From the IMG/VR virus record IMGVR_UViG_3300021425_004041, positions 22,116 to 86,115 of that record: a DNA stretch of 64,000 nucleotides, one strand, 5' to 3'. Origin of the DNA: a virus. The notes below the pieces were generated by a model. The model did not search any database and was not told the DNA's origin. It worked only from the letters and a program-made list of their open reading frames with translations. The position numbers and the translations under genes were made by a program. Positions 19,209-58,929 of this stretch are shown piece after piece. The stretch's first letter is position 1. Each line of letters starts with the position of its first letter.

Positions 19209-19211
19209 ATA
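19204..19211 (+). promoter_or_regulatory. T4-type late promoter box TATAAATA
   Basis: An exact TATAAATA, the T4 late -10 consensus, overlaps the stop codon of the third fibre gene and lies 27 bases before the next start codon at 19239. No -35 element is expected for this promoter class. Its placement between two structural genes supports it, although AT-rich DNA produces chance matches. Confidence 0.5.
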
Positions 19212-19238
19212 AAACTAGTAGTTTACACGGAGTTAAGT

Positions 19239-20198: not shown

Positions 20199-20210
20199 AA
20201 AATAGAATTT

Positions 20211-25436: not shown

Positions 25437-26167
25437 ATAAAGTCCCTAACATAATTGTTATAGGCTGTAGTTGGTCTAAATGGGGAGACAACGATTTTTT
25501 CAGCAATTCAGCCTTAAAAAAAGATAGTGTAAGTAGTTGGCCATTATTGCTGAGTGAGCAATATGATTGTAATGTTGAAAATTTCTCGCTATTAGGTAAC
25601 AGTATAGCTTTCCAGTTTTATACTTTTTTAGAAATACTAAAAAATTACAAATTAGAAGAAATTGATTTAATAATTTTACAAATAACATCTTTTTATAGGC
25701 AATCTTTTAAAATATCAAATAGTAAGTTTCAAAATACGAATATTAAAGAAGATTTAAAGACTATTACACCTAAATATAGAAGTTTAAAATGTGATAGAAT
25801 TGAACATCATAATCCTTATGCTCCGGCAAAATTTTTTAATCTTGGTAATAAGTCATTTTTTAGAAGATTATGTACAATGAATGCAAAATATTCTATTAAT
25901 GCTGCTATAGAATTTGAAATAGCATGGATTGATAAAATATTAATTTTATGTAAAGAAAAAAATATACCTTGTCTTCCTTGGCAATATCGCAATGGACATA
26001 ATTTTTGGGCATATGAAAAAGCTGAGTTTATTCTTGAAAAAGAATTATCTAATAAATTATGGCAAAAGTTTATAGTAGATGAAGGAAAACATTTTAACAC
26101 AAAAGGACAACAATATATATTAGATCATTTTTTGTTAGACAGAATACGTAAATATGTACAATTATGA
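25430..26167 (+). CDS. SGNH/GDSL-like hydrolase with altered block I (GCSWS)
   Basis: The 245-residue protein begins with a beta strand and nucleophile loop, NIIVIGCSWSKWGDNDFF, where the usual GDS is GCS. NFSLLGNSIAFQFYTFLEIL supplies the block II Gly and block III Asn, and DEGKHFNTKGQQYILDHFLL near the end supplies the catalytic Asp/His pair. SGNH enzymes cleave esters, often acetyl groups on glycans; some act as acyltransferases. The substrate here is unknown. A second SGNH-like protein is encoded at 42121-43005. It overlaps the next radical SAM gene by 14 bases. Confidence 0.58.
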   Translation: MLNKVPNIIVIGCSWSKWGDNDFFSNSALKKDSVSSWPLLLSEQYDCNVENFSLLGNSIAFQFYTFLEILKNYKLEEIDLIILQITSFYRQSFKISNSKFQNTNIKEDLKTITPKYRSLKCDRIEHHNPYAPAKFFNLGNKSFFRRLCTMNAKYSINAAIEFEIAWIDKILILCKEKNIPCLPWQYRNGHNFWAYEKAEFILEKELSNKLWQKFIVDEGKHFNTKGQQYILDHFLLDRIRKYVQL

Positions 26168-27227
26168 AGATATAAAAACAATTCATTTAGAAATAACACA
26201 AAATTGTCAAGCTTCATGTCCTATGTGTGATAGGAATCAAAATGGCGGCGCATTAAATCCTCATATTAATTTAGATGAATTGACAATAGATGATGTAAAA
26301 AATATATTCACAGTAGATTTTATTTCGCAATTATCTACTATGTATATGTGTGGTAATTTAGGCGATCCTATTGTTGCTCGTGATACTTTAGAAGTTTTTG
26401 AATATTTTAGGAGTAATAATTCTAAAATGTGGTTGAGTATGAATACAAATGCAGGTGCTAGAGATGAGAATTGGTGGCAAGAACTTGCTAAAATTTATGG
26501 CAGGATGGGTGCTGTTATTTTTAGTGTAGATGGATTGCAAGATACAAATCATATTTATAGGCAAGGTGTAGTTTGGGAAAATGTAGAACGGTCTATGCGT
26601 AGTTTTACAGGTGCAGGAGGTAGAGGCCGCTGGGATTTTTTAATTTTTGATCATAACCAACATCAAGTAGAAGAAGCAGAACGGTTAAGTAAAGAATGGG
26701 GTTTTGAAAAATTTATTAAGAAAAAAACTGGACGGTTTGTAACAGCAAATGTTGAAGCAAAGGACACACATCAAGCAGTCAACAAAAAAGGTAAAAAGAC
26801 TGCAGAGATAGCAAAACCTAAAGATGAATTTCAAAACATTGCAATTAAAAATTTACCAATATTATTAGAAAAATATGGCACTATGCATAATTATTATAAT
26901 AAAGTACCAATTTTTTGTAAAGTAAAAAAAGATGGTAGTTTATTCATTACTGCAGAAGGCTTAGCATTACCTTGTTGTTGGACAGCCGGCCGTATGTATA
27001 AATGGTGGCATGAAGATCCTAAAATAGAACAAATATGGAGTTTTATTGATAACAAATCTAAAATTAATGCAAAGAATGGCTTACATCAAGTATTTGCCAG
27101 TGGAATTTTTGAAACTATAGAACAAAGTTGGAAGAAAACTTCTTGTGATAATGGAAGATTAAAAGTTTGTGCAATGAAATGTGGAGTAGAATTTGATCCT
27201 TTTTCCGCTCAATTTATTAAAAGTTAA
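26154..27227 (+). CDS. Radical SAM protein with C-terminal SPASM-like Cys cluster
   Basis: A 357-residue protein with the radical SAM [4Fe-4S] motif CQASCPMC (Cys18, Cys22, Cys25) near the N-terminus and a GNLGDP segment in place of the usual GGEP. The C-terminal third has FCKVKKDGSLFITAEG, then LPCCWTAGR and a final CAMKCG, consistent with auxiliary iron-sulfur ligands of SPASM type. It lacks the N-terminal Cys region of the following eight paralogues. Family chemistry is reductive cleavage of SAM to a 5'-deoxyadenosyl radical; the substrate is unknown. It is the first gene of the radical SAM block. Confidence 0.82.
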   Translation: MYNYEDIKTIHLEITQNCQASCPMCDRNQNGGALNPHINLDELTIDDVKNIFTVDFISQLSTMYMCGNLGDPIVARDTLEVFEYFRSNNSKMWLSMNTNAGARDENWWQELAKIYGRMGAVIFSVDGLQDTNHIYRQGVVWENVERSMRSFTGAGGRGRWDFLIFDHNQHQVEEAERLSKEWGFEKFIKKKTGRFVTANVEAKDTHQAVNKKGKKTAEIAKPKDEFQNIAIKNLPILLEKYGTMHNYYNKVPIFCKVKKDGSLFITAEGLALPCCWTAGRMYKWWHEDPKIEQIWSFIDNKSKINAKNGLHQVFASGIFETIEQSWKKTSCDNGRLKVCAMKCGVEFDPFSAQFIKS

Positions 27228-27242
27228 TATGGGAAAAAATAA

Positions 27243-28649
27243 ATGACAAATATATCTAAAACATTTTGTGTTTTACCTTGGATACATTTAAGCAGTCGGC
27301 CAGATGGTAAAATGCGAACTTGTTGCACGTCTAACGCAAGTTCAGTGCAAAGTTCTGACAGTAGTAAGAAAATTGGAGGAGGAGAAGTAGGAGTAGTAAA
27401 AAATGACGACGGTATACCTGCAAATTTTAATCATACTTCTTTAGAAAATGCATGGAATTCTTCTTATATGCGTAATGTTAGAAAAAAAATGCTTGCAGGA
27501 GAAAAACCTGACAGTTGTTTGAAATGTTATAAAGAAGAAGATGCAGGACATTTAAGTAAAAGAAATTGGGAAACTGAATACTGGAGTCATAGATATGATA
27601 TTGGCAAGCTAATCAAGGATACTAATGCTGACGGAACTATACCTACAAAAATTAGATATATTGATTTACGTATGGGTTCAAAATGTCAACTTGCTTGTGT
27701 TATGTGCTCTCCGCATGATAGCTCTGGATGGATAACTGATTGGCAATCAATATATCCTAAAATAGAAAATAAAAAATTAAAAAATACAAGTCAATGGAAA
27801 AATAAAGGACAAGTTCACGGCGCAAGTTATAATTGGCATAAAAACAATCCTAAATTTTGGAAAGAATTAATGGAACAAGTTCCTAATATGTATCAGTTGT
27901 ATTTTGCAGGGGGCGAAAGTTTAATAATTGATGAGCATTATGAGCTATTAGAAGAATGTATTAAAAGAAATTATGCAAAAAACATTGAATTAAGATATAA
28001 TTCTAATGCAGTAGAATGGAGAGAAGATTTATTTGATTTGTGGAAGGAATTCAAAAGAGTTAGATTTCATTATAGCATAGACGCACATGGAGAGCAAAAT
28101 GATTACATACGATTTCCTAGTAATTGGACTCATCAAGAGAAAGTGTTTCATTTATTAGATAATTCTCCAGATCAAGTTGAAGTTACTACAGCTACTACAA
28201 TATTAGCTTTAAATATTGCTTATATTCCAGAATTTGTAAAATGGAAAGTTTCTCAAGGATTTAAAAAAATCAATCAATGGCCATTAGGTGCAGGAGGAAT
28301 AAATATGCATTTTGCTTATTGGCCTCCTCAATTAAATGTTAAAGTTTTACCAAAAAATATTAAAAAACAAATAACTGAAAAATATGAGAAAGAATTTTAT
28401 CCGTGGATAGATGAAAATTGGAATAAATTTACTGGAGTAGCAGAAAACAATATTTCTTATGATGAATTTCAAAATGCACCATACGGTAAAAAAAGATTCA
28501 AAGGAATTATAAATTTTATGAATGCTGAAGATTGGAGTGAAAGGCTACCTGAAACAAAAGAATATTTAAATTTAGTTAACGAACAAAGAGGATGGACTAA
28601 CAAATTTTTACAAGTATTTCCTATTTTTGAGGAGATAATATATGGGTAA
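27243..28649 (+). CDS. Radical SAM protein with N-terminal twitch-like Cys domain (copy 1 of 8)
   Basis: The 468-residue protein has an N-terminal region with Cys9 (FCVLPWIHL), a CC pair (27-28), and C-x2-C at 92-95 before the core. This is the plan of phage and bacterial N-terminal twitch radical SAM proteins, where these Cys probably hold an auxiliary Fe-S cluster. The radical SAM motif is CQLACVMC (148, 152, 155), followed by FAGGES at about residues 222-226. It is the longest of the eight because of a Ser/Gly-rich insertion after the CC pair (residues 31-60). GGGAAAAAATAA lies before the ATG. The substrate is unknown. Confidence 0.83.
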   Translation: MTNISKTFCVLPWIHLSSRPDGKMRTCCTSNASSVQSSDSSKKIGGGEVGVVKNDDGIPANFNHTSLENAWNSSYMRNVRKKMLAGEKPDSCLKCYKEEDAGHLSKRNWETEYWSHRYDIGKLIKDTNADGTIPTKIRYIDLRMGSKCQLACVMCSPHDSSGWITDWQSIYPKIENKKLKNTSQWKNKGQVHGASYNWHKNNPKFWKELMEQVPNMYQLYFAGGESLIIDEHYELLEECIKRNYAKNIELRYNSNAVEWREDLFDLWKEFKRVRFHYSIDAHGEQNDYIRFPSNWTHQEKVFHLLDNSPDQVEVTTATTILALNIAYIPEFVKWKVSQGFKKINQWPLGAGGINMHFAYWPPQLNVKVLPKNIKKQITEKYEKEFYPWIDENWNKFTGVAENNISYDEFQNAPYGKKRFKGIINFMNAEDWSERLPETKEYLNLVNEQRGWTNKFLQVFPIFEEIIYG

Positions 28650-29820
28650 GGGTATTTGCTCTGCAGTTCATCATGGTTTATGTATCACTGCTTACGGTGC
28701 AGTAAATCCTTGTTGTGCTACAACACAAGATTTTTCTAATTTAGAAAATACTTCAAATCTTGTTGATTATTTTTATAATGATGTAGAATTAGAAAAAGCT
28801 AGGAAAATAGAAATCGAAACCGAAGAATGGTTAGAAGCTTGTAAAGGTTGCGAAATAAAATCAAAATCTGGGCTAGTATCTCGAAAAGATAAATTTTCTA
28901 ATTGGTACAGATTCGTAAATCCTAAATGGACAGCAGAAAACAAACACGAGATACTTCATATGGATATAAGTTTTGGAAATTCTTGTAACCAAAAATGTAT
29001 TATGTGCAATAGCAACTTTTCAAGTCAATGGTTAGATGATGATTTAGAAATGAAAGAAACTGCTCCATATATAAGGAATTGGAATGGACTTAAATTAAAA
29101 AATTGGAGTTTGACATATGAGTATTTAGATCAAATTGCACTATTAGTAACAGATAAAACGCAAAAAATAGAAATTAAGGGCGGGGAACCTTTATATGATA
29201 AGAGATTTGAATATTTTGTATTAAAAGTTTTAGAGGTTAATGAGAATGTTATGTTTAATGTTAATACAAATGGTACACATTTTAGTATGAAAAATATAGA
29301 AATGCTGAATAAAATTAAAAATATTAACATTGATATTAGTTTTGACGGTATAAACAAAATATATGAATGGATAAGGGGGACCGAATGGAAAAAGTCAGAA
29401 GAAAATTTCCAAACATACCTACAACATTGTAAACATTCTTGCAACTTAAATTATACCACTAGTATGTATAATATAGATCATTTTGAAATTTTTTACAATT
29501 GGGCAGCAGATTTATCCGAAAAATATAAAAAAGCTGTTCCTTGTCTTTTTACCCAAGTAGTTATGACTCCATCTTTTCAACAAATTATGTACGCTGATAA
29601 AAAAAGAATACATCAAGGCTTAGAGCAGATAGAGCGTATTAAATACGATCCTCGAGGAACGCAATCAAGTACTAATTTATTTAGACCAAGATTAGAAATT
29701 ATTCAAAAATATTTAGAAAATCAATTATCTAAAACTGCTGATATTAACATATTTGAAAAAGCACATAATCATTTTGTAAAAATTAGGGGCTGGGATATAA
29801 GAGATTATGTTAACTTGTAA
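28642..29820 (+). CDS. Radical SAM protein with N-terminal twitch-like Cys domain (copy 2 of 8)
   Basis: A 392-residue paralogue. N-terminal Cys occur at 14, 24-25 (NPCC) and 67/70 (CKGC); the radical SAM motif is CNQKCIMC at 115, 119 and 122, inside a MDISFGNSC context, and KGGEPLY follows near residue 180. A NVNTNGTHFS strand and a DISFDGI strand complete the partial TIM-barrel signature. It overlaps the preceding gene by 8 bases and the following by 14. N-terminal twitch family members modify unidentified substrates; no dedicated substrate is visible nearby. Confidence 0.82.
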   Translation: MGKGICSAVHHGLCITAYGAVNPCCATTQDFSNLENTSNLVDYFYNDVELEKARKIEIETEEWLEACKGCEIKSKSGLVSRKDKFSNWYRFVNPKWTAENKHEILHMDISFGNSCNQKCIMCNSNFSSQWLDDDLEMKETAPYIRNWNGLKLKNWSLTYEYLDQIALLVTDKTQKIEIKGGEPLYDKRFEYFVLKVLEVNENVMFNVNTNGTHFSMKNIEMLNKIKNINIDISFDGINKIYEWIRGTEWKKSEENFQTYLQHCKHSCNLNYTTSMYNIDHFEIFYNWAADLSEKYKKAVPCLFTQVVMTPSFQQIMYADKKRIHQGLEQIERIKYDPRGTQSSTNLFRPRLEIIQKYLENQLSKTADINIFEKAHNHFVKIRGWDIRDYVNL

Positions 29821-30967
29821 GGTACCTTGGATCTCAATTACATTAAGCGGTAATGGAGACATTAAGCCGTGTTGTGTGTTTAAAGGAGGAGAGCATAGTA
29901 TTCATAAAGGAGATACGCTTGACTCGACGTGGAAAGATTTTGATAAACTTCGTGAACAATTTATTAAAGGATATAAACCTGATAAATGTAATCAATGTTG
30001 GAAAAGAGAAGAAACATTAGGATACAGTAGAAGAACATGGTATGATGATAAAATAAAAATTTGGCCAGAAACTTTTGATTTAAATCCTACAATGGAATTA
30101 CGACATATGGATTTAAATTTTGGAAATACTTGTAATTTAAAATGTCGTATGTGTGGTAGTTGGGGCAGTACTGCATGGTTTAAAGAAGAAGAAAAACTAA
30201 TGTCTTGTAATCCTGCATTACAAAGAGGAGTATCAAATCTTAAACCTACAATAATACCTGCTGATTATTGGGCTGATAAAAAAACGATGTTTCGATTTTT
30301 AGAACGAATAGATTTCAAGGGCGGAGAACCGATGATGCAAGAAGGTATGTATGATTTCCTTGAGTATCTTGTTTCATGGGGATATGCATCTAACATAACT
30401 ATTGCTTATACAACAAATGGTACTAAAACTCCTGAAAGGTTAAAAGAGCTTTGGCCAAAGTTTAAGAAAGTAAAATTAGTAATAAGTGTCGAAGCAACTG
30501 GTAAATTGTATGAATATATTAGAGGCGGTGACGTTCAATCTATAGATTCCTTAAAAGATAACATACATTGGTTTGATCAATTTAATAATTTAAATGGTAG
30601 TTTTAACAGTGCTATACAAATTTATAATATATTTGCTTTACCAAAATTACTTGAATGGTTTAGAGATACTGTAAATGCTAGCAAAAAATGGCACACAGAT
30701 CCAAATACTTTTAAATTTGATTGTTTAGTAGTTAATCCGCCGTATTTAGATATAAACATTATGCCAAACAGTTTAAAGAACAAAGCTATCTCAATAATAG
30801 AAGAAAAGAATTATAAAAGCCTTGGTGTTATAAAAAGTGCATTACAGAAAAAAAATACTTTTGATGATTATAACTGGAAATTGTTTATAGATTTTACCAA
30901 ACAATTAGATAAAATGCGGCATACAGATATTAAAGAAGTTGTTCCTGAGTTACAGGAGTATTTTTAA
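29807..30967 (+). CDS. Radical SAM protein with N-terminal twitch-like Cys domain (copy 3 of 8)
   Basis: A 386-residue paralogue with N-terminal CKVPWISI (Cys4), a CC pair at 22-23 (IKPCCVF), CNQC at 61/64, and the radical SAM motif CNLKCRMC at 109, 113 and 116 after MDLNFGN. FKGGEPMM and TTNGTK mark the next barrel strands. The Ser/Trp after the third Cys (GSWGSTAW) is shared with copies 1, 2, 4, 5 and 8 as a small-x-x-W pattern. Its last base is the first base of the next ATG. Confidence 0.83.
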   Translation: MLTCKVPWISITLSGNGDIKPCCVFKGGEHSIHKGDTLDSTWKDFDKLREQFIKGYKPDKCNQCWKREETLGYSRRTWYDDKIKIWPETFDLNPTMELRHMDLNFGNTCNLKCRMCGSWGSTAWFKEEEKLMSCNPALQRGVSNLKPTIIPADYWADKKTMFRFLERIDFKGGEPMMQEGMYDFLEYLVSWGYASNITIAYTTNGTKTPERLKELWPKFKKVKLVISVEATGKLYEYIRGGDVQSIDSLKDNIHWFDQFNNLNGSFNSAIQIYNIFALPKLLEWFRDTVNASKKWHTDPNTFKFDCLVVNPPYLDINIMPNSLKNKAISIIEEKNYKSLGVIKSALQKKNTFDDYNWKLFIDFTKQLDKMRHTDIKEVVPELQEYF

Positions 30968-32181
30968 TGTTTACTTTGAAAAATAGCTGTGTTTATATGA
31001 ATAATTTTCCTTTCATTAATAATAAAGGACAATTAAAGCTTTGTTGTAAAAATAATACGTATACAATGGAAGGAAATATCAAAACTCATTCGTTAAAAGA
31101 AATGTATTTTAGTTCTTTATACAATGAGTTAAGGGATAAAATGTTAGCAGAAAAGGTTATAGAAGGATGTGATATTTGTTATTCACAAGAAGCTCGTAAC
31201 GAAGATAGTTTTAGAATTAGAGCTTTGACAAATATTACTAGAGAAGATAGAGATAAGATAGTTCCCTTTCCAAAAGTAAAGATACAAAATTTAGATCTAA
31301 GGATAGGTTCTACTTGTAATTTAATGTGTTCAATGTGTCATCCTACAGATAGTAGTAAATGGTATGCAAATTATGAAACATTTGCAAAAGAAGTTCATAA
31401 TAAAAGTGACAATCATGTGAACATTATTAAATCAACAAATATTCCAACTGATTTAAATTGGGCAACATATGACGAAAGTTGGGATAATATTTTTAAAAGT
31501 ATTGATGATGAATTAAATTTTGTTTACATTGCGGGAGGAGAGCCTTTTTATATTAAAAAATTTCCTGAGTATTTAACACATTTAATTGAAAAATCTCCTA
31601 ATGCAATAATTGAAATAAACACTAATTCAACTGCTGCTATTCCAGAAAAGTATTTAGATAAATTAAAAGGAAAGTTACAATTACGTATTAGTATAGATGG
31701 TTTTAGAAAAACAGAAGAATATCAACGTGCAGGTACAAATTGGAATGAGAAAATTAAGATAATTGATTCATATTCAAAATATTTTGAAATTAAATGTTTT
31801 GATATTACTCTAACAAGTTTTACTATTAGATCTTTGCCTTCTCTTGTAAGTTTTTTAGAAAATAGATATCCAAAAGTTCGTTTTTTATTTAGACCTGTTG
31901 TAAATAGGCAAGGTCAAGATATTAGAAGTGTACCTAAAAAATTTTTAAGTCATGTAAAAACATTTTGTAAGGAAAAACAAGAAATAATTAATGAAAATAA
32001 GGAAATGCGCTGGCATTATAACAATATTAATCAAATTTTAAATTTTTTAAATCAAGATTATATTGATGAAAAAGAAACATTACAAAAACTTGTAAAATAT
32101 TGGGATGATTTAACAGGAATACATTTTAAATCTTTTGATACAGAATTTGGAAATTGGATAAATGAAAACCATAGCAGTTGA
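30967..32181 (+). CDS. Radical SAM protein with N-terminal twitch-like Cys domain (copy 4 of 8)
   Basis: A 404-residue paralogue with Cys8, a CC pair at 26-27 (LKLCCKNN), C-x2-C at 68/71, and radical SAM motif CNLMCSMC at 117, 121 and 124, then HPTDSSKW. AGGEPFY and INTNSTA follow. The final 20 bases overlap the next gene. Within the eight it is closest in layout to copy 5 by its HP-x-D-S region, a visual impression that an alignment should test. Confidence 0.82.
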   Translation: MFTLKNSCVYMNNFPFINNKGQLKLCCKNNTYTMEGNIKTHSLKEMYFSSLYNELRDKMLAEKVIEGCDICYSQEARNEDSFRIRALTNITREDRDKIVPFPKVKIQNLDLRIGSTCNLMCSMCHPTDSSKWYANYETFAKEVHNKSDNHVNIIKSTNIPTDLNWATYDESWDNIFKSIDDELNFVYIAGGEPFYIKKFPEYLTHLIEKSPNAIIEINTNSTAAIPEKYLDKLKGKLQLRISIDGFRKTEEYQRAGTNWNEKIKIIDSYSKYFEIKCFDITLTSFTIRSLPSLVSFLENRYPKVRFLFRPVVNRQGQDIRSVPKKFLSHVKTFCKEKQEIINENKEMRWHYNNINQILNFLNQDYIDEKETLQKLVKYWDDLTGIHFKSFDTEFGNWINENHSS

Positions 32182-33867: not shown

Positions 33868-33868
33868 A

Positions 33869-36509: not shown

Positions 36510-36518
36510 ATAAAATAT

Positions 36519-44542: not shown

Positions 44543-44569
44543 TGTCTAACTTATGGACAATTTTTACTA

Positions 44570-46396
44570 ATGAAAAAAAATGTTTTATTATGTACTTTTA
44601 GTATTCAATTTCAAGATTGGTTGCCTTATGCTGTAGGGTGCCTTATATCTTACTGCAAAAGAAATGCTAAAATAAATGAACAATTTAATTTTTTAGAACC
44701 AGAATTTTTACAGAGATCTGTTTTTGATACACAAATGACCAAAAAGTTACAAAAAACAAATATTTTAGGACTTACTTGTTATATATGGAATCAAGAAATA
44801 AATGATAGGTTAGCAAAAAGATTTAAAAAAATTAATCCAAATGGTTTAGTAGTGTATGGAGGACCACAAATACCAGAAGATAAAGAAGAGGCACAAGAAT
44901 ATTGTAAAGAAAGACAATATGTTGATATATGTTTTGTTGGACCAGCTGAAGAAAATTTCAAACAATTTTTACTTAAACTAGATGATCCTATAGATAGTCA
45001 TGAAGGCACTGTTGGTATAGGATGGAATAATGTAAATGTTGACAGAAAATTGTATAAAGTAAATTATACTCCTACACCTTATACTGATGGAACGTTAACT
45101 AAAATGTTTTTCCTTACAGGAGATAATTATGTTATACCTATGGAAACAAACAGGGGGTGTCCGTATGCTTGTGCATTTTGTGATTGGGGAAGTGTAATAA
45201 AAAGTAAAATAACAAGATTTGATACAGATGTTATTATGAAAGTTTTTGAACTAGCATTTAAGGGTAACATTAATAGAATCGAATTTATAGATGCAAATTA
45301 TGGGGTTTTCCCTGTAGATTTGGATTATGTAAATGAAATGATACGATTGAAATACGAGTATAAAAGAAACGATATGAAAGTAACGTTTTGTGGACTTGCT
45401 AAAAACGGAAGTAAATACCTTGCTGAAATAATGACAAAAGTACAAAAAGAGTTTGAAGAGAATAATAATACTATGAAATTAAGTATACAAACTCATACAA
45501 AAGAAGCTTTAGAAGTTGCAAGTAGGCAAAACATCAGTAATGAAAAAATGTTAGAAATTTATAACAATGTAAAAAAACAAGGTTATGAAATTAATAGTGA
45601 ATTAATTATAGGTATGCCAGGCGAAACAGATGAAACGTGGTTAGATGTTTTACAAAAAGATATCGATAATGGTTGTAAATTTAACAGATGCTATCCGTTA
45701 AGTGTAATGCCTAATACTACATATTATTCAAAAGAATTTAGAAAAAAATATAATGCAAATTTAATAAAAATTTTTGCACCAAAAGACCTTTTGAATATGA
45801 AATTAACCGATTATCATAAAAATCGACAAAATGCTCGATTTATTAAAACTAATGTTAGCATGACAGATACATTACAATGGCGCAGTATGACTATGTTTAA
45901 TTCGTGTTACAGTTATACGAATGAACAATTAGAAAAAATGTACATGTATTGGTGGTGGTTCAGTACTTTGTTTAATACAGGATTTGCTAGAAAGTTTATG
46001 TTAATTTCTAAAAAATCGATTCGTTATCAAGCTTATGATTTTTTTGATAAAATTGATAAAATGCCGTTATTTAAATCATTTTTTGATGATCAGCAGTATG
46101 CCTTTAAACAAAATTTAAGCACTAAGGAGGAAATTGTATATTTGACTGATCTATTGAGTGTCCAGTATATTATTAAAAATCATATGCGGCTTAGAGAAGT
46201 AGTTGATATTTATGATAATTTAGATATAGCAGCAAATGAAATTCGTTTAGTTTATAAAGATTTTACGTTAGATCATATTGATAATTTTTTAACAAAAAAA
46301 CATTATTATAAATTATATTCTGCAGACGGAAATATGGAAAAAAAATATGCCAACAGTTTTGTATCAGACACCACCGTTGATTTACTTGCGAACTAA
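44570..46396 (+). CDS. B12-binding-type radical SAM protein (copy 2 of 3)
   Basis: The 608-residue protein has an N-terminal B12-binding-like region (NVLLCTFSIQFQDWLPYAVG, NILGLTCYIWNQEI, GLVVYGGPQIP, CFVGPAEENFKQFL) and the radical SAM motif CPYACAFC at 197, 201 and 204 in NRGCPYACAFCDWGS. No DxHxxG was found. KLSIQTHTKEALEVA and ELIIGMPGETDETWLDVL are typical later strands. The C-terminal ~200 residues are of unknown fold. It is preceded by a 27-base gap, one of the few in the island, and its end overlaps the next gene by 50 bases. Confidence 0.78.
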   Translation: MKKNVLLCTFSIQFQDWLPYAVGCLISYCKRNAKINEQFNFLEPEFLQRSVFDTQMTKKLQKTNILGLTCYIWNQEINDRLAKRFKKINPNGLVVYGGPQIPEDKEEAQEYCKERQYVDICFVGPAEENFKQFLLKLDDPIDSHEGTVGIGWNNVNVDRKLYKVNYTPTPYTDGTLTKMFFLTGDNYVIPMETNRGCPYACAFCDWGSVIKSKITRFDTDVIMKVFELAFKGNINRIEFIDANYGVFPVDLDYVNEMIRLKYEYKRNDMKVTFCGLAKNGSKYLAEIMTKVQKEFEENNNTMKLSIQTHTKEALEVASRQNISNEKMLEIYNNVKKQGYEINSELIIGMPGETDETWLDVLQKDIDNGCKFNRCYPLSVMPNTTYYSKEFRKKYNANLIKIFAPKDLLNMKLTDYHKNRQNARFIKTNVSMTDTLQWRSMTMFNSCYSYTNEQLEKMYMYWWWFSTLFNTGFARKFMLISKKSIRYQAYDFFDKIDKMPLFKSFFDDQQYAFKQNLSTKEEIVYLTDLLSVQYIIKNHMRLREVVDIYDNLDIAANEIRLVYKDFTLDHIDNFLTKKHYYKLYSADGNMEKKYANSFVSDTTVDLLAN

Positions 46397-46967
46397 AAAA
46401 ACAGGAAGTTTTTCTTTAAAATTTTGTATGAGAGAATATGCATATAATAATCAAATTACTATTTTAGATGTTAAAAGTAAATATACTGATACGCTAGACA
46501 CGCATAAGTTTATAAGTCATATGCCAGCTAAAGATTTAAGTAAAAGACTTGATGTATGGAATAGTGCTTACAAATTTACGTTTGTTCGTAATCCATGGAA
46601 AGTAATATACAGTTATTATATTTATATAAAATACACATTACCAATGTATAATTATCAAGTAAAAGAATCTTATTGTGTTAATAATTTAAATGACTTTGTG
46701 CTAAGTTTGCAAGACGTACACGGAACAATAAATTTTAATAGAGAAATTTATACAATTGATAATCAAGTTTGTGCAAATGTTTTTGATATATCAAGTATTC
46801 CTATAGTTATGAAAAAACTATTTATGATAGACAATGTTCCGTGTAAAAATACACAAAAATATAATTTTAATATAAATGAGTTTACATCAAGATTAGATAA
46901 CTATGTTTATAATGATTATGAATGGGAAATAAATGAGTTTGATTACACAAAACCTACCTTGGATTGA
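46347..46967 (+). CDS. Sulfotransferase-like protein (copy 1 of 2)
   Basis: A 206-residue protein with LIYLRTKKTGSFSLKFCM at residues ~11-28, in the place of the 5'-phosphosulfate-binding loop, and FTFVRNPWKVIYSYYIY (about 72-88), matching the 3'-phosphate-binding VRNPxxxxxSxY signature of PAPS-dependent sulfotransferases. HGTINFNREIYTID later is shared in order with the second copy at 53096-53722 (RGTLNPGKDYYTLD). It would move sulfate from PAPS to a hydroxyl or amine acceptor. The start overlaps the preceding gene by 50 bases. Confidence 0.66.
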   Translation: MPTVLYQTPPLIYLRTKKTGSFSLKFCMREYAYNNQITILDVKSKYTDTLDTHKFISHMPAKDLSKRLDVWNSAYKFTFVRNPWKVIYSYYIYIKYTLPMYNYQVKESYCVNNLNDFVLSLQDVHGTINFNREIYTIDNQVCANVFDISSIPIVMKKLFMIDNVPCKNTQKYNFNINEFTSRLDNYVYNDYEWEINEFDYTKPTLD

Positions 46968-47535
46968 TGTTGACTATGACATTCCTAATAAAAAAGAATT
47001 ATTAAGGTTAATCAAAACAGTTGAGTTTGTATTAGCTGACAACAAAGTTGACGAATCGTACGACGGCATTTATCGCCGAGCTCATAATCTTACTATTGGT
47101 AAACTATGGGATCAGCAAAATATTAATGCTGAAGGCTATGACATGAAGCCATTACCTGATCAAAAACCTTATAAAGAACTGCTAGAACTTACTTACGAAA
47201 CTTCAGTTAGGGTCAAAAAAGATTTAGACTTACCAGAAAAATTACTTTACCATTGTGGGCTATTTATATTTGTTCCTAAGCAGACTAGAATAGCTTATCA
47301 TGTTGATAGTTTTAGAAACTGCAATGTAAGTATGCCATTAGCAAATGAAGGTTCTTATACTCGTTGGAAATTGCCAAATGGTGAAATAGTAGAAACTTTA
47401 TATGCCCGAACAGCAGTACTAGACACACATACACCGCATTGTGTTGATAATAAATCAGATAACGATCGTTATAACTATCAGTTGACATTTCACGCAGATG
47501 TATATATTGATGATATAAGGAGTCTATTTGAATGA
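46933..47535 (+). CDS. 2OG-Fe(II) oxygenase, Asp/Asn beta-hydroxylase-like
   Basis: A 200-residue protein with RIAYHVDSFRN (His123, Asp125), a NVSMPLANEG strand, and LDTHTPHCVDNKSDNDRYN with the distal His at about 169 and a downstream Arg that fits 2-oxoglutarate binding. It is the first of six consecutive members of this family (46933-51552). GGGAAATAA precedes the ATG. Family chemistry is side-chain or small-molecule hydroxylation; the substrate is not known. Confidence 0.68.
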   Translation: MSLITQNLPWIDVDYDIPNKKELLRLIKTVEFVLADNKVDESYDGIYRRAHNLTIGKLWDQQNINAEGYDMKPLPDQKPYKELLELTYETSVRVKKDLDLPEKLLYHCGLFIFVPKQTRIAYHVDSFRNCNVSMPLANEGSYTRWKLPNGEIVETLYARTAVLDTHTPHCVDNKSDNDRYNYQLTFHADVYIDDIRSLFE

Positions 47536-47582
47536 ATCCTTGGAATCAAATAACAGATTTACCAAATTATGAGTATGCTTGA
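47532..47582 (+). other. Short 16-codon reading frame, possible broken N-terminus of the next oxygenase
   Basis: From an ATGA overlap with the previous stop, a frame reads MNPWNQITDLPNYEYA and ends at TGA (47580-47582). The wording resembles N-termini of sister proteins in the cluster (LPKFDYEQAW at 48913-49806, where Trp follows Ala). The main oxygenase frame (47569-48228) is +1 relative to it. It may be a leader for translational coupling, a +1 frameshift site at GCTTGA, or damage by indel. Confidence 0.35.
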
Positions 47583-48228
47583 AAGACAGTTGAATTATAC
47601 TGCTATAGTTAGCTGTGGAGATTTTCTCGAAACATTGTATCCTAAATTTGATTACGAAACTGTTGCATGTATTGTTTTTGAATATGGAGATAAACACGGT
47701 TGGTATGAGCGTGGAAATCACGGAGTTAGTGGATTGTCTATTATTAATAAAGACGGCCGCACAATTAGTCCAGCAGTTGATAGTATACGTAGTTACAATA
47801 AGGAAAACAACACAAACTGGATCGAAACAGACTTTAGACAAAAAACAGAGTTATATAATGATGTTATAGATCATATACCGTTGTTAAAAGATGCAGAGCC
47901 TTTTTTGTGTCGTAGTCACTTTATTAAAATGTCTCAAGGTGGAATATTTCCGCCACATCATGATGGCTTAGATGCTATTAGAATTGCAATTCCTATTTGG
48001 AATTGCGGAACAAATGACTTTAAATGGGGATACGAAGACAAAGTCCTTCAGATGAAAGAAGGTCATTGTTATTATATGAACACATTAAAAAAACATTGGG
48101 TTGTGAGTTTTACTGACGATTGTTTGTTTTTACTTTTAAATATAGAACCTACACCAGAAGCATGTTACTGGTTATGGGATACAGCATTAGGAGGACGTAA
48201 TGCACCGAAGCGAAGAACTAGGCCTTAG
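47569..48228 (+). CDS. 2OG-Fe(II) oxygenase, Asp/Asn beta-hydroxylase-like
   Basis: The 219-residue protein has FIKMSQGGIFPPHHDGLD with H-x-D at His130 and Asp132, IAIPIWNCGTNDFKWGY, and TLKKHWVVSFTDD with the distal His at about 176. The layout matches the family, though the Arg after the distal His is not obvious. The start is uncertain: ATG 47569 and 47575 have no clear ribosome-binding site, and a better-placed start at 47532 is out of frame. It overlaps the next gene by 29 bases. Confidence 0.66.
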   Translation: MSMLERQLNYTAIVSCGDFLETLYPKFDYETVACIVFEYGDKHGWYERGNHGVSGLSIINKDGRTISPAVDSIRSYNKENNTNWIETDFRQKTELYNDVIDHIPLLKDAEPFLCRSHFIKMSQGGIFPPHHDGLDAIRIAIPIWNCGTNDFKWGYEDKVLQMKEGHCYYMNTLKKHWVVSFTDDCLFLLLNIEPTPEACYWLWDTALGGRNAPKRRTRP

Positions 48229-48916
48229 TCGAGTTGTTGACGTTGGAATGACTGAAGAATGGTATAATGATATAGTAAGTGATTTACAACCTGCAATAGA
48301 CTTAATAGAAAAACACCTCAATAGTGGTTACGATAATCCAGGCGGCGAATACTTTAATTTAAGCTGGCCGCTTGGTCATACTCCGTACATGCCTGCAGAA
48401 CAAAAGAAAGAACGCACAGAGCAAGGCTTATACGAAGAAATTGAATTTGATGATTATGTATTAAATTGTAATTACTTTCGAAAAGGTACACCTGAAGAAT
48501 ATATTGTGCATGGTATACGCCCAAAGTATACTAGTGTCGAAGTAGGTGAACATGTAAAAAGATATATCGATACAATTGCAGAAATAGACGGTCATCAAGA
48601 CAAAAATAAAGTTATGTTAGTTATGTACAAAGGCCCAGAATTTAGTATGCAGTGGCACAACGATACTTATACATATAATAGATATCAGTTTCCGATCACT
48701 ACTACACCATTTGGACAGTTCGGTTGGCGATACAAGCATAATGATAAAAATGTTGAAGAAGTTTGGTTAAGCATGGACAAAGGTACAACTTACTGGGTAA
48801 ATACACAAAATATACATATTTTTGATAACAGTCGTCCTGGCTGTACAGGACGTATACACTTTATGATAGATTACTTAGATTGGGAACCTCATTACGAAAA
48901 GGGATTTAAGCCATGA
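48200..48916 (+). CDS. 2OG-Fe(II) oxygenase, Asp/Asn beta-hydroxylase-like
   Basis: A 238-residue protein with EFSMQWHNDTYTYNRYQFPI (His153, Asp155), GQFGWRYKHNDKNVEE, and WVNTQNIHIFDNSRPGCTGRIHFMID, giving the distal His at about 206 and a following Arg-Ile-His strand. The ATG at 48200 follows TTAGGAGGACGTA, a near-perfect ribosome-binding site, which fixes the start despite a 29-base overlap. The 4-base overlap with the next gene indicates coupling. Confidence 0.7.
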   Translation: MHRSEELGLSRVVDVGMTEEWYNDIVSDLQPAIDLIEKHLNSGYDNPGGEYFNLSWPLGHTPYMPAEQKKERTEQGLYEEIEFDDYVLNCNYFRKGTPEEYIVHGIRPKYTSVEVGEHVKRYIDTIAEIDGHQDKNKVMLVMYKGPEFSMQWHNDTYTYNRYQFPITTTPFGQFGWRYKHNDKNVEEVWLSMDKGTTYWVNTQNIHIFDNSRPGCTGRIHFMIDYLDWEPHYEKGFKP

Positions 48917-49806
48917 AGATAATAGATGAAAGTACTATACATCCTAATTTACAGGTTCCTTGGAAAAGTCAAGAAGATGAATTTGTACCTGACTTCGATA
49001 AAAAAGTTGACTTGGAAGAAAAACAAAGATACGAAGCGCAAATTGCAAAGTACGAACAAGAGAATCCAGTTAGTGCTAGAATAAAAGAAATCCCGCATAT
49101 TAAATTAAACTTACCAAAGTTTGATTACGAACAGGCGTGGAACGAAGTTCAGCAACTTGACGAAGATACTTACAGCAGATGCAATTTGCGAAACTACAAA
49201 GAAACACAAGAAAAAGGACCGTTGTTGCATCCTCATTGGTATAGTAAAACAATAGTTAACTACACTCCGCACAGTTGGGTAGGTCAAGGCAAACAAGCAA
49301 AAGAAGAAGCAGCTTGGGCATATCCAGAGTACCAGTCTTATGCAGCAAGTATTGTAGATGATGTTGCCCGACTAAACAGCGAAGATATGGAGTTTTATAA
49401 AACTGAAATATATGATCAATTGCCTACTATAACAAGTTTTATTAATAAACACATTGCAGATACAACTTATCGTATGCATGTATGGAAAATAAAAGATGGC
49501 GGCTATCTAAACTGGCACAATCATGCAAGATTGCCTTGGCATAGTGATGTTATTGTAAACGATAAAGCAATTGTACATTTGCCTCTATACACACACCCCG
49601 ATGTGAACATGCTTGTTCGTAAAGAAGGAAAAATCTACGCAGAGCATTATACTCCCGGCGAAGCGTGGATCTTTAATTACATATACGATCATGCTGTAGA
49701 TAATCCTACAGATGTGTTTAGGTGTCATATTGTTTTTTATGTACCTTTAACGGATAAAAAGTTTGCAAAGCTAGTAGAGGAGTCTTTAAATGTTAACAAA
49801 AATTAA
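48913..49806 (+). CDS. 2OG-Fe(II) oxygenase-like protein with His-rich metal site
   Basis: A 297-residue protein. Residues 1-60 are charged and helical. The core has MHVWKIKDGGYLNWHNHARL, then PWHSDVIVND and AIVHLPLYTHPD, and later GEAWIFNYIYDHAVDNPTDVFRCHIVF. The spacing from HSD to the HLPL strand fits the H-x-D motif of its neighbours, but WHNH lies where others place their H-x-D, so the metal ligands are ambiguous. The distal His is in DHAVDNP. It is the longest single-domain member of the cluster. Confidence 0.62.
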   Translation: MKIIDESTIHPNLQVPWKSQEDEFVPDFDKKVDLEEKQRYEAQIAKYEQENPVSARIKEIPHIKLNLPKFDYEQAWNEVQQLDEDTYSRCNLRNYKETQEKGPLLHPHWYSKTIVNYTPHSWVGQGKQAKEEAAWAYPEYQSYAASIVDDVARLNSEDMEFYKTEIYDQLPTITSFINKHIADTTYRMHVWKIKDGGYLNWHNHARLPWHSDVIVNDKAIVHLPLYTHPDVNMLVRKEGKIYAEHYTPGEAWIFNYIYDHAVDNPTDVFRCHIVFYVPLTDKKFAKLVEESLNVNKN

Positions 49807-50923
49807 AGACGTTGTAGACGATGCTACTTTATTAGAAAGCGAAATTGCAAGTTTAGAAGCAGATTTAGAATTTGCTGCATCTCTCATTAATGAACCAAGT
49901 AGGGTATTTACTAGCTTTCCGAGAGGATCTAAACATAGAAGCCTTACTACACTTGCTCGTTGCAAAGTTTTATATACTGACGAAAGGATGGAAGTTTTTA
50001 AAAGACCTCATGCAAATATTTTGTTTGTTACATTTGTAGAAAAGGAAACATCTAAGTTTAGAGATCAGTTTGAAAAAGAAATAAAAATTAATCAAATAGG
50101 TATTGCACTTTTTACACCAGGATTTAGTTTTAATTGGCACACTGACCATTTTCCAACACTTAGATGGCATATACCTATTAAAACAAATAGAAAATGTTTT
50201 TTAGAATCTAGAGAAGCAAAAGTGCATATGGAAAAATTTTCTTTATGGACACTAGATAGCAGTAAAGACCATCGTGCATATAATAACGGAAAGGATAACA
50301 GATTGCATTTAATTGCGGATTACGCTGAACCGCCGGTGTGTGAAAAATTAGATGTAAGTTTTAATTTTGAAGAAGTATACAAATGTGTTAAACCAGTATG
50401 CGATAAAATTAAAGGATATAGGAAAGAATATCACTCCACGGATATTGTTAGGATAATGAGTGCATATCCTATAGGGTGTCCGCATTATACGAGTCAAAAA
50501 CGTAAAGACGAAACTTGGGAAGTTATCGATAACGATGAAGTTACGACGTATACTCGTTCAACTAAGTTTGGTACAATTATGGTTAGTGCGTACTGGAAAG
50601 GTACAGTTGTATGGGATCAACCAGTATTAGATCTTATAGAAAAGATTCGCACATTGTACAATGAAGAAGGCATAGCACAAGTTGCAGTGATTATGGCAGG
50701 CGAAAATTTTAGATTAGAACGACATGTTGATACTAAAGGATTGACACGATATCACGTTCCGCTAGAAACTAACGAACACAGTTATTTTGTAACTTATGAT
50801 CCTGAAACTAAGTGGTGGCCAAAAGAAGGTGACGTATGGCGTTTAGAGACTGATAAATATCATGCAGCAATGAACGATAGTGAAACAGAAACAAGAATAC
50901 ATATGATAATAGATTTTATCTAA
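49790..50923 (+). CDS. Tandem double-domain Asp/Asn beta-hydroxylase-like protein
   Basis: This 377-residue protein holds two complete-looking oxygenase units. Unit 1: FSFNWHTDHFPTLRWHIPI (His117, Asp119) and SKDHRAYNNGKDNRLHLIADY (distal His about 161). Unit 2: FRLERHVDTKGLTRYHVPLE (His312, Asp314), WWPKEGDVWRLETDKYHAAMN (distal His about 358) and ETETRIHMIIDF. Both keep H-x-D...H and the following Arg. Fusion or duplication within one chain could create a paired active site. It overlaps the previous gene by 17 bases and the next by 1. Confidence 0.7.
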   Translation: MLTKIKDVVDDATLLESEIASLEADLEFAASLINEPSRVFTSFPRGSKHRSLTTLARCKVLYTDERMEVFKRPHANILFVTFVEKETSKFRDQFEKEIKINQIGIALFTPGFSFNWHTDHFPTLRWHIPIKTNRKCFLESREAKVHMEKFSLWTLDSSKDHRAYNNGKDNRLHLIADYAEPPVCEKLDVSFNFEEVYKCVKPVCDKIKGYRKEYHSTDIVRIMSAYPIGCPHYTSQKRKDETWEVIDNDEVTTYTRSTKFGTIMVSAYWKGTVVWDQPVLDLIEKIRTLYNEEGIAQVAVIMAGENFRLERHVDTKGLTRYHVPLETNEHSYFVTYDPETKWWPKEGDVWRLETDKYHAAMNDSETETRIHMIIDFI

Positions 50924-51552
50924 TGACTAATATAACGCTATTAAACACAAATTTTAAAGATATGTTAACTGAGTTAAAAATTGAGCTAGCGCCTTATCTT
51001 GCAGCAATGCAAGATTATGAGCAATATTTAGATTTTAGTAAATACCCAAATAGAGTAGCAATTGTATACCCTGTAGGCAATACACAAAAAAGTTTATATG
51101 CAAGCAGAAATCTTGATGAAAAGAAACCAGTACACAGAGATTTTGAAACATACAAAAGTTTTCAATTATTTTTCCCCCAACATCAAACTTTAAACCATAC
51201 ACTCCAACTTAAAGGAGGAAAATATCCTGTTGATATAATTAATAAAATAAAGTTTATTATTTTTAAAGAAACTGGATATGATGTATTAGAGTGCGAAGCA
51301 GCAATTGCAACAAAGTATAAAAACTACACATTGCAGCCGCACATTGACGGTGATAAGGAAGAAAGTGGAGTAACGAACAGAATTCATTTGGTATTAGAGT
51401 CTAATGAAACAAATTACTTTGAAGATGAAAATAAAATGAAATACAATCTTAAAGAAGGAGAAGTTTGGGATATAGATGTTACACGTACACATGGTGCTGG
51501 AAACTTTTCAGATGCTAGAGCTACTCATCTAGTTCTCGATTACAAAGGATGA
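50923..51552 (+). CDS. 2OG-Fe(II) oxygenase, Asp/Asn beta-hydroxylase-like
   Basis: A 209-residue protein with YTLQPHIDGDKEE (His140, Asp142), TNRIHLVLESNETNYFEDE, LKEGEVWDIDVTRTHGAGN with the distal His at about 190, and ATHLVLDY at the end. The LESNETNYF segment resembles LETNEHSYF in unit 2 of the preceding protein, so the two are probably closest relatives. It is the last oxygenase of the plus-strand run and overlaps the B12-type radical SAM gene by 4 bases. Confidence 0.7.
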   Translation: MTNITLLNTNFKDMLTELKIELAPYLAAMQDYEQYLDFSKYPNRVAIVYPVGNTQKSLYASRNLDEKKPVHRDFETYKSFQLFFPQHQTLNHTLQLKGGKYPVDIINKIKFIIFKETGYDVLECEAAIATKYKNYTLQPHIDGDKEESGVTNRIHLVLESNETNYFEDENKMKYNLKEGEVWDIDVTRTHGAGNFSDARATHLVLDYKG

Positions 51553-53108
51553 AACTTTTACTATGTACTATACCTAAAAATGGAGTCAATACTCCTAGTC
51601 TAGCAATCGGATACCTCCAAGCGGCTTGTAAGCAGCAAGGTATAGCCGTAGAAGTAAGAGATTTTAACTGGGACCTCTGGAATGCTACTATACATACGGA
51701 CTGGTGGGAAATATGGAAAGAGTCTAACACAGATTTATACAAAGGTAATCGATTTAATCAGTTTGTTAATGAAGTATACGACAACTTTCTTGATAAGTGG
51801 GCAGAAGAAATAGCAAACAACAATGCTGAATGGATCGGCATCAGTTGTTTTAGCTATCGTAGCTTGCCTAGTTTGAAACTTCTGTCTCCTAAAATCCGCA
51901 AACTTGCTCCTACTAAAAAGATAATTGTGGGCGGCGCTCCTATAGCAACATATGCAAATTGGATTATAGCAAATAATATAGCAGATTATGCAGTTGAAAG
52001 CGAAGGCGATGTTGTGCTTCCTAAAATACTTAAAGGAGAAATACAGCCCGGAATTGTTAAATCTATACAAATTGATGACCTTAACTCCTTACCGCCAGCA
52101 GATTATACAGGACTAGATTTTTCTAAATATATCCCAGGAGATCCAGGCGGACTACGAGTACATCATAATTCAGCCTGGACTAGTGATAGAGTTGAAGCAG
52201 GAATAATGGGTAGTAGAGGATGCGTTCGTAAATGTACATTCTGTGATGTAGAACAGTATTGGCCTAAATTTAGATGGCGCAGTGCCGAAAGCATTTATGA
52301 CGAAATGCTAATGCTATACAACAAAGGCATAAACGAAATATATTTTTACGATAGTTTAATAAATGGTAATCAAGGCGAGTTTGAAAAGTTGCTAGATTTA
52401 ATTATCTCAGATGGTTCTAAGTTTAGAAGTATCAAAGGTTTAGCAATTTTTAAATTTCAGCCTGAAAGGTTGTATGAAAAAATGTCTAAAGCAAATGTGA
52501 AACAACTAAGTATCGGGGTAGAAAGTTTCTCAGAAGAAATTCGTACACAGATGCGTAAAAAGTTTAGCAATGCTACTATGGAAGAAAATCTTGAAATGTA
52601 CAAAAAGTACAAAATAAGAGTAGTACTGCTAATGTTAATAGGGTATCCTAGTGAACGAGAAAAACATCATAAAGAAAATCTTAAATGGATAAGAGAACAT
52701 GCCAGCATGGCACAAGGAAAACCAATTAGTAGAATTGAAATAGGCGGAACAATGATTATACTACCTGGAGCTCCTGTGTTCAAAGATCATATGTTTGATT
52801 ATTATATTGACAAAAAAAATGAATGGATTTCACTAAATGGTAGAGAATCTAATACGATGGATGTTAGAGTGAGACGTAGAAAAGAAACTGAAGACTATTG
52901 TACTCGTTATGGATTTGCTACTGGAAGTGTATATGGAGAAGGAGGAATTGTTTTAGGTGATCATGAAAAAAATAATGCTGCTGACTATAAACGCCCGCAA
53001 GATAGTTTGACACCATTAACAAATATTAATAAGTTAAATTTTGAAGAAGACGGCATTGTATTAGGATGGGAAAGTGATCCAACTCGACCATTACATCAAA
53101 ATTCGTAG
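51549..53108 (+). CDS. B12-binding-type radical SAM protein (copy 3 of 3)
   Basis: The 519-residue protein begins LLLCTIPKNGVNTPSLAIGYL, a B12-binding-domain opening, with EWIGISCFSYRSL and KIIVGGAPIATYANW further on. The radical SAM motif is CVRKCTFC at 225, 229 and 232; the surrounding GSRGCVRKC and KFRWRSAESI nearly repeat those of copy 1 (37222-38709). QLSIGVESFSEEIRTQMRKKF and LLMLIGYPSEREKHHKE follow. The C-terminus overlaps the convergent minus-strand sulfotransferase gene by 13 bases, and no terminator hairpin was seen there. Confidence 0.8.
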   Translation: MKLLLCTIPKNGVNTPSLAIGYLQAACKQQGIAVEVRDFNWDLWNATIHTDWWEIWKESNTDLYKGNRFNQFVNEVYDNFLDKWAEEIANNNAEWIGISCFSYRSLPSLKLLSPKIRKLAPTKKIIVGGAPIATYANWIIANNIADYAVESEGDVVLPKILKGEIQPGIVKSIQIDDLNSLPPADYTGLDFSKYIPGDPGGLRVHHNSAWTSDRVEAGIMGSRGCVRKCTFCDVEQYWPKFRWRSAESIYDEMLMLYNKGINEIYFYDSLINGNQGEFEKLLDLIISDGSKFRSIKGLAIFKFQPERLYEKMSKANVKQLSIGVESFSEEIRTQMRKKFSNATMEENLEMYKKYKIRVVLLMLIGYPSEREKHHKENLKWIREHASMAQGKPISRIEIGGTMIILPGAPVFKDHMFDYYIDKKNEWISLNGRESNTMDVRVRRRKETEDYCTRYGFATGSVYGEGGIVLGDHEKNNAADYKRPQDSLTPLTNINKLNFEEDGIVLGWESDPTRPLHQNS

Positions 53109-56140: not shown

Positions 56141-56149
56141 TATATTTTT

Positions 56150-58065: not shown

Positions 58066-58066
58066 T

Positions 58067-58898: not shown

Positions 58899-58929
58899 AA
58901 TATTTCCTTTCAAAAAATGTGTGTTATAT

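Follow-up and report, generated by a model that had tools for sequence, protein, structure and literature searches.

What would a bacteriophage do with fourteen radical S-adenosylmethionine (rSAM) enzymes? The question is raised by a 64,000-nucleotide stretch of DNA from a large water-borne phage (the window; positions 22116-86115 of the 86,115-base IMG/VR record IMGVR_UViG_3300021425_004041), which carries an island of rSAM genes at window positions 26154-53108. We find that the island stands at a hypervariable site behind tail fibre genes and shares a core of three rSAM genes with related phages and with bacterial chromosomes; tentatively, we interpret it as an enzyme block that modifies the virion. 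Open reading frames (ORFs) are named by their start in the window (for example, w26154).

Fourteen radical SAM proteins in a T4-like phage

A search of the whole record with the Radical_SAM profile PF04055 gave 14 matches, every one over the family cut-off and every one within 26154-53108. Scanned as single proteins, w26154 (score 29.0, cut-off 29.5) and w27243 (score 29.5) are borderline by Pfam alone. The motif CxxxCxxC occurs in 14 of the 28 island ORFs; 200 residue shuffles averaged 0.09 and never exceeded 1. These counts bear out the original prediction, made from the letters alone, of fourteen rSAM proteins in a phage island. Its division into eight proteins with N-terminal twitch-like cysteine regions, three of B12 type and three others also holds, as judged by cysteine sets and profiles, and the array is indeed nearly gapless, the largest gap being 33 bases. 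The rSAM genes are the following:

26154-27227, plus strand: w26154 rSAM (R26), conserved head gene of the island (PF04055; in 22/22 P74 loci, see below)
27243-28649, plus strand: w27243 N-twitch rSAM, second core gene (NF033640, 413.8 bits)
28642-32181, plus strand: three N-twitch rSAM genes, 28642, 29807 and 30967 (PF04055, NCBIfam scan, cysteine set)
32162-33290, plus strand: two-gene R43-like rSAM, with the catalytic part at 32162-32908 and a cysteine-containing tail at 32901-33290 (match to w43005)
33869-35158, plus strand: w33869 N-twitch rSAM (PF04055, NCBIfam scan, cysteine set)
37222-38709, plus strand: w37222 B12-type rSAM (PF04055, profile scans)
38706-42124, plus strand: three N-twitch rSAM genes, 38706, 39862 and 41069 (PF04055, cysteine set)
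43005-44120, plus strand: w43005 rSAM (R43), third core gene (PF04055, NCBIfam scan)
44570-46396, plus strand: w44570 B12-type rSAM, KedN5-like (PF04055, NCBIfam scan)
51549-53108, plus strand: w51549 B12-type rSAM, last gene of the plus-strand run (PF04055)

In an alignment, all eight twitch proteins keep seven cysteines, four N-terminal and three of the rSAM motif. The five of them scanned with NF033640 (N_Twi_rSAM; curated cut-off 170 bits) all pass, at 175.9 to 413.8 bits, and the other three were aligned only. Two of the B12-type proteins, w37222 and w51549, are 29% identical over 489 amino acids, with a B12-binding match in w37222 that stays below cut-off; the best profile for the third, w44570, is KedN5 at 168.8 bits against a cut-off of 700. 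The remaining three are w26154, w43005 and the two-gene w32162/w32901, whose products match the N and C parts of w43005, respectively. Because the same two genes recur in two phages (L022 and L057) and three bacterial loci (L097, L113 and L143), the split is probably a natural two-gene form, and an assembly error is unlikely. Viperin was considered and rejected: of the ten rSAM proteins run against its profile (NF038283, cut-off 180), w32162 (58.1), w43005 (38.9), w29807 (25.6) and w33869 (26.7) all scored below it.

The record also holds homologues of gp46/47, a late sigma factor, gp5, gp25 and gp6, as in a T4-like phage, which places the island in a phage genome. The gp6 protein is nearest to those of jumbo phages (Salicola SCTP-2, PA5oct-like phages and Atu_ph07; 33-37% identity), so that the 86 kb record is probably incomplete, a piece of a bigger genome. 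Base composition shows no sharp break at the island start, and G+C content is somewhat higher towards its end, at 47-53 kb. The junction between fibres and island is spanned by an independent contig, L175, which matches window 15222-28453 with 94.5% identity over 13,250 bases. The concern that the island could be a chimera with bacterial DNA is reduced for this junction by L175 and by comparable islands at the matching place in seven related phage records, but could still apply to 28.5-53.1 kb, for which no near-identical second contig was found among the loci compared.

The island occupies a hypervariable site behind the tail fibres

The island follows a run of virion genes and precedes a conserved part of the phage genome:

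window 1-12828 plus upstream (record 18585-34943): 5,452-amino-acid giant gene (virion structural PHROG matches)
12849-20198, plus strand: w12849, three tail fibre paralogues (13467, 15567 and 17634; common N-terminal domain; PHROG tail matches) and w19239
20557-22193, plus strand: w20557 and w21375, two homologous predicted GT8-like GT-A glycosyltransferases (AlphaFold2 (AF2) model, hhalign)
22738-25221, plus strand: w22738, with two homologous GT-A-like domains (GT1 and GT2) and a C-terminal class I methyltransferase-like domain, MTC (AF2, Foldseek, VIA)
25218-25433, plus strand: P74, a conserved 72-amino-acid protein that opens the rSAM island in this lineage (alignment of 25)
53096-57733, minus strand: rest of the flexible region, with sulfotransferase-like, one 2-oxoglutarate (2OG) oxygenase-like and unknown genes (Pfam scans)
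57781-63853, minus strand: conserved phage backbone past the island (PHROG HNH endonuclease, ATPase; collinear in relatives and in L289)

The giant gene lies between gp6 and the fibres and has FG-GAP and CBM matches in its window part. w12849 belongs to phrog_11259, of unknown function, and homologues of the fibre-block genes stand in the same order in relatives. We mapped eight records, the window's own and seven relatives. All run in one direction through gp6, the giant gene, w12849, one to three fibre genes, a w19239-like gene, w20211, w20557, w21375 and the parts of w22738 to the island, and each carries 9 to 20 rSAM-labelled ORFs. P74 is present in seven of the eight. Three (G007, G019 and G031) have extra genes, rSAM included, between GT1 and GT2. 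After the island, the opposite-strand backbone of the window returns in all four relatives that reach far enough (G007, G012, G025 and G032). The search for the same gene order in related contigs, which the original prediction had proposed, has thus turned up comparable islands at the corresponding place in seven phage records. The layout is that of a pelagimyophage-type host recognition cluster, with a hypervariable region and tail fibres between a baseplate or giant protein and a conserved backbone, in a different phage lineage.

The site can also be occupied without rSAM genes. Phage locus L289 has the fibres, the glycosyltransferases and both GT1 and GT2, followed by a single 227-amino-acid gene and then the collinear backbone from w57781 to w63326. 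This one gene stands in for the island plus the opposite-strand stretch 53096-57733, and the locus has no ORF with CxxxCxxC. Loci L288 and L326 resemble it over a shorter stretch; they and L290 likewise lack a CxxxCxxC ORF. A scan with GT2 gave 79 loci, 25 of which were set aside for too little sequence beyond GT2; in the 54 judged, at least two rSAM-labelled ORFs were found in 40, one in 7 and none in 7, with window-derived profile labels that may miss distant rSAM proteins.

Island content turns over fast (mean Jaccard index 0.16 between 22 loci). Parts of the region 22.7-28.4 kb have a nucleotide identity of 80-94% to contigs that differ in the rest of the island and in which identity between fibre proteins is mostly 47-61%, a sign of recombination.

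A conserved core of three rSAM genes

Some genes of the island recur far more regularly than the rest. The loci fetched by the twitch query alone include 44 distinct orthologues of w27243 that have 9 kb or more of upstream sequence; R26 lies upstream in 41 of these, MTC in 39, GT2 in 36 and P74 in 25. An earlier count of 73 distinct orthologues (R26 70, MTC 68, GT2 65, P74 52) was set aside as biased because some of its loci had been fetched with P74 or GT2 as query. Seen from P74, the R26 family occurs within the following 9.5 kb in 22/22 loci and the w27243 family in 19/22, with every other family in 7 or fewer.

A P74 scan gave 80 loci, none called in two; rSAM genes accompany P74 in 77 of the 78 where it was called, and the exception has only 2.5 kb downstream. 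P74, the only small island-linked ORF examined, is conserved throughout and has no variable core in an alignment of 25. A role as universal precursor was rejected, as there are core loci without P74 in phages and bacteria. Its profile matches in the PDB, short fragments of designed and antibody proteins, were ignored. The metagenome-assembled genome (MAG) labels of P74-carrying loci conflict (Rickettsiales, Gammaproteobacteria, Neisseriaceae), and these are probably mis-binned phage contigs. Loci L083, L084, L106, L128 and L129, binned in bacterial MAGs of a species-level genome collection, carry P74 or this lineage's fibre domain and are probably phage contigs too.

Large rSAM sets also occur among the relatives. 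Scanning viral contigs with the twitch alignment gave at least 590 relatives, of which 80 were kept; the 40 kept loci with about 20 kb or more hold 2 to 13 rSAM-labelled ORFs. In 38 of the 80 records, picked for length and searched whole with PF04055 (E up to 0.001), we found 1 to 23 matches (median 11), with 14 to 23 in 12 of them.

Predicted glycosyltransferases and a methyltransferase head the island

The AF2 model of w20557 has a mean predicted local distance difference test (pLDDT) score of 91.3 and a GT-A fold over its full length, with a VIA Z of 16.1 to glycogenin-1 (198 residues aligned, root-mean-square deviation (r.m.s.d.) 3.4). D99 and D101 are invariant in the A8 alignment, and w21375 is homologous (hhalign probability 99.8). 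Both proteins are predicted, from the model of w20557 and this homology, to be GT8-like glycosyltransferases.

The larger w22738 is modelled less well (pLDDT 77.6). Its GT1 and GT2 domains match each other with an hhalign probability of 100 and resemble, with low TM-scores, the chondroitin polymerase K4CP; MTC resembles NodS (VIA Z 14.4, 163 aligned, r.m.s.d. 2.7). VIA returned methyltransferase-type rows only for this protein, so the GT domains were barely tested there; a search of PDB sequences with GT1 and MTC profiles gave nothing significant, and the folds came from AF2. In L023 (1273-4941) and in the G012 relative of w22738, tandem repeats of about 16 residues occur in the linker between GT2 and the methyltransferase, their number differing between phages; w22738 itself has a short linker with no obvious repeat array.

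A chromosomal counterpart in Bdellovibrionota

A genome scan found contigs of up to 937 kb that combine a w27243 relative with R26, R43 and MTC and/or GT2 (L085, L087, L088, L089 and L104). In the phylum of L087's genome, Bdellovibrionota (a phylum of predatory bacteria), 30 of 240 genomes match w27243 at 1e-40, 14 of them below 1e-150 (6 known from the scan and 8 new); in a contrast phylum, that of a Chloroflexi-labelled MAG, the match occurs in 1/251, the seed itself. In the eight new genomes, the locus lies on contigs of 24 kb to 1.6 Mb. Near the w27243 orthologue (51-60% identical in Bdellovibrionota), all eight carry a w43005 orthologue (55-65% identical), six a w26154 relative (40-46%), five a GT1/GT2-type gene and two MTC. 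The locus is therefore like the island in its orthologous rSAM trio, its GT1/GT2-like genes and, in some genomes, its MTC-like genes; unlike the island, it has genes on both strands and no P74 or fibre-domain genes called.

In a quick, midpoint-rooted tree, 36 of the 51 phage rows fall within a Bdellovibrionota grade; the root separates the remaining 15 from it. Three loci with labels of other phyla (L086, L090 and L091) are nested among the phages. Together, the shared core and the tree placement make gene exchange between the phage lineage and Bdellovibrionota likely; Bdellovibrionota as hosts are only a lead. Chromosomal twitch rSAM genes were also surveyed for their neighbours: among 135 sampled neighbours, the commonest families are glycosyl transferase 2 (five cases), carbamoyltransferase (three) and DegT aminotransferase (three), counted with no background control. 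Four bacterial loci (L095, L103, L134 and L143) each pack 7 to 12 rSAM-labelled ORFs into about 21 kb, and two of them, L103 and L143, contain w35145- and w36519-like genes as well.

Comparison with known rSAM-rich phages

The original prediction knew of no well-described phage system of this size. This needs completing: large rSAM sets are in print. Campylobacter phages CP220 and CPt10 have 11 and 12 rSAM proteins in an interchangeable module (PMC2853527). The marine T4-like environmental genome TARA_ERS488813_N000010 has 12 rSAM genes, given as a count among Fe-S genes (PMC5332604), and the pelagimyophage host recognition cluster has rSAM cassettes and glycosyltransferases (PMC7029224). We conclude that rSAM-rich phages as such are not new.

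In our search, CP220 gave 11 PF04055 matches, 9 of them over cut-off. It resembles the island in having five rSAM genes beside two nucleotide-diphospho-sugar transferases. It differs in sequence, its best match to w26154 being only 24.6% identical, and it is absent from the w27243 tblastn matches and has no Asp_Arg_Hydrox match. In the cultured pelagimyophage Mosig EXVC030M, the region from the tail fibres to VrlC contains genes for MoaA-like, Asp_Arg_Hydrox, nitroreductase, ArnB-like aminotransferase and carbamoyltransferase proteins. Mosig has only two PF04055 matches, one over cut-off, and belongs to another phage lineage. The TARA genome, a marine T4-like phage with a big rSAM set, was likened by its published count and not by sequence. 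A functional study of a phage rSAM array was not found in the literature searched, which took in no preprints and only some subscription papers. New here is the place of the island at a hypervariable site behind tail fibres and predicted glycosyltransferases. Its core of recurring genes, the rSAM-free alleles and the kinship with Bdellovibrionota appear in no prior text found, as far as the available parts of those texts go.

What the island may do

The island is likely to be a modification set, as the original prediction supposed. Its position in line with the fibre genes, the predicted glycosyltransferases at its head, and sugar enzymes near some chromosomal relatives, in Mosig and in CP220, favour a cytosolic, glycan-type pathway with a phage protein as acceptor. 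Our reading, tentative and without great confidence, is that the island supplies the enzymes of a cytosolic pathway, probably acting late, which makes a sugar-based modification and then tailors it; the likeliest acceptors are the phage's own tail fibres or its giant protein of the baseplate region. The sugar would be laid down by the GT8-like enzymes and the two-domain GT-A-like enzyme, with the methyltransferase; the three-rSAM core (w26154, w27243 and w43005) would carry out common radical steps; and the variable rest (the other twitch rSAM, B12-type rSAM, Asp/Asn-hydroxylase-like 2OG and sulfotransferase-like proteins) may diversify the product between phages. We infer the sugar substrate, the virion acceptor, the late timing and every reaction in this scheme. 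Of the substrates first considered (glycan, lipid, protein or peptide), the evidence leans to glycan-type chemistry, and the choice is not settled.

A cytosolic location is consistent with hydropathy. None of the 35 window ORFs at 20.2-53.2 kb has a membrane-like segment (3 of 72 in the whole record, none in the island), and thus no flippase, polymerase or phosphoglycosyl transferase was seen among those 35, by hydropathy and in a record that is probably incomplete. By the same simple measure, 152 of 154 island ORFs from the seven relatives lack such a segment, and four bacterial loci have one in 5/20, 4/16, 4/21 and 6/18 ORFs. Strand, position and the late sigma homologue suggest late expression of the island. 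A late-promoter-like motif, taken from T4, adds weakly to this: it precedes 5 of 12 w19239-family genes, 3 of 8 gp25 genes and 2 of 106 rSAM genes, against a background of 0.28% per 70 bases.

Several observations speak against a virion modification of this kind. The motif just described is not specific: it stands before 8 of 107 other opposite-strand genes, and only 1 of 21 fibre genes and none of 7 giant genes have it. Fibre sequence and island content, which would be expected to vary together if the fibres were modified, show no co-variation (partial Mantel r -0.11, p 0.76, n 22; thinned set, n 17, p 0.71). In five records (G005, G010, G016, G018 and G023), a distance of 24 to about 149 kb separates GT1 from GT2, and the rSAM core stands next to GT2 and MTC, so adjacency to the fibres is not universal. 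Foldseek matched w22738 to the chondroitin polymerase K4CP at E 1.7e-6 but with low TM-scores (0.13/0.17) for a two-domain model. Finally, rSAM enzymes and Asp/Asn hydroxylases act on polypeptides too.

The enzymes of the island could instead act on the host surface, altering host sugars or the O-chain during infection and so blocking superinfection, a role proposed for the glycosyltransferases of the pelagimyophage host recognition cluster at a similar genomic position (PMC7029224). The sugar enzymes nearby in Mosig and the homologous core in bacterial chromosomes, in some cases near surface-glycan-type genes, fit this explanation, and sugar pools of the host could still be supplied or redirected by the phage. 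The complete lack of membrane-like proteins among the 35 window ORFs and the place of the island at the end of the virion gene run tell against it, and we regard it as rather doubtful.

Direct modification of polypeptides is, in our judgement, unlikely. Here, twitch/SPASM and B12-type rSAM enzymes, with the Asp/Asn-hydroxylase-like 2OG enzymes, would modify the backbone or side chains either of the fibres or of a short precursor, for which P74 is a candidate, in the manner of ribosomally synthesised and post-translationally modified peptides. B12-type rSAM enzymes together with hydroxylases recall the polytheonamide toolkit. Many of the related rSAM profiles in NCBIfam are peptide maturases (every score below its cut-off), the best solved relative by sequence is SkfB, and P74 is small and strictly linked to the islands. 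Yet P74 lacks a variable core and is missing from several phages and from core-bearing Bdellovibrionota loci, and it is glycosyltransferase and methyltransferase parts that travel with the core.

Support of host metabolism by auxiliary Fe-S enzymes, the interpretation offered for CP220 (PMC2853527) and for Fe-S-rich marine phage genomes (PMC5332604), is very improbable given the fast turnover of island content, the host-recognition-type site and the fact that no known metabolic pathway was recognised.

Other genes of the island

Among the genes interleaved with the rSAM array, the original prediction had named nitroreductase-like, SGNH, short-chain dehydrogenase/reductase (SDR), 2OG oxygenase and sulfotransferase genes. 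The 2OG label has profile support: Asp_Arg_Hydrox (PF05118) is over cut-off in w36519, w48913, w49790 (two domains) and w50923 and below it in w47569, and w46933 and w48200 are 2OG-like by motif only. The nitroreductase, SDR and sulfotransferase labels have sub-threshold matches only, and SGNH is a motif reading without Pfam support.

25430-26167, plus strand: w25430, SGNH-like by motif reading only (no Pfam match; relatives in some other islands)
33262-33867, plus strand: w33262, weakly nitroreductase-like (PF00881, E 0.003, below cut-off)
35145-37238, plus strand: unknown w35145, then the 2OG hydroxylase-like w36519 (PF05118, E 1.6e-12 for w36519)
42103-43005, plus strand: w42103, SGNH-like by motif reading only (no Pfam match above cut-off)
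44117-44542, plus strand: w44117, weakly SDR-like (PF00106, E 6.4e-4, below cut-off)
46347-46967, plus strand: w46347, weakly sulfotransferase-like (its profile matches w53096, itself PF00685 at E 3.1e-4, below cut-off)
46933-51552, plus strand: 2OG-oxygenase-like run of 46933, 47569, 48200, 48913, 49790 (two domains) and 50923 (PF05118 or motif)

Relatives of w35145 and w36519 recur as neighbouring pairs in phages and Bdellovibrionota. In the 154 loci with at least four rSAM genes, some of which share a contig, the commonest unlabelled non-rSAM gene between rSAM genes belongs to a QueC-like family (representative L066:6753-7565; a weak, sub-threshold match), present in 54 loci and not seen in the window. 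For another family of marine islands (that of L052:16342-17400), a guess of amidinotransferase was dropped, as no Pfam or NCBIfam profile matched.

Implications

Phage rSAM arrays have been noted since 2010; they can now be given a defined site, a core, glycosyltransferase neighbours, rSAM-free alleles and a chromosomal counterpart. One may speculate, at low confidence, that this phage lineage, whose hosts might be Bdellovibrionota, carries the Bdellovibrionota rSAM trio with its glycosyltransferase and methyltransferase parts in order to decorate its adhesive fibres. The decoration would be a glycan or glycopeptide of a kind not seen before, tailored by radical chemistry, and an exchangeable complement of rSAM, B12 and 2OG enzymes would diversify it. 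The anatomy found here makes the question of function testable in cultured phages such as Mosig and CP220, and by way of a few core genes. If the product does sit on virions, this would be a virus that varies its adhesive surface by radical chemistry.

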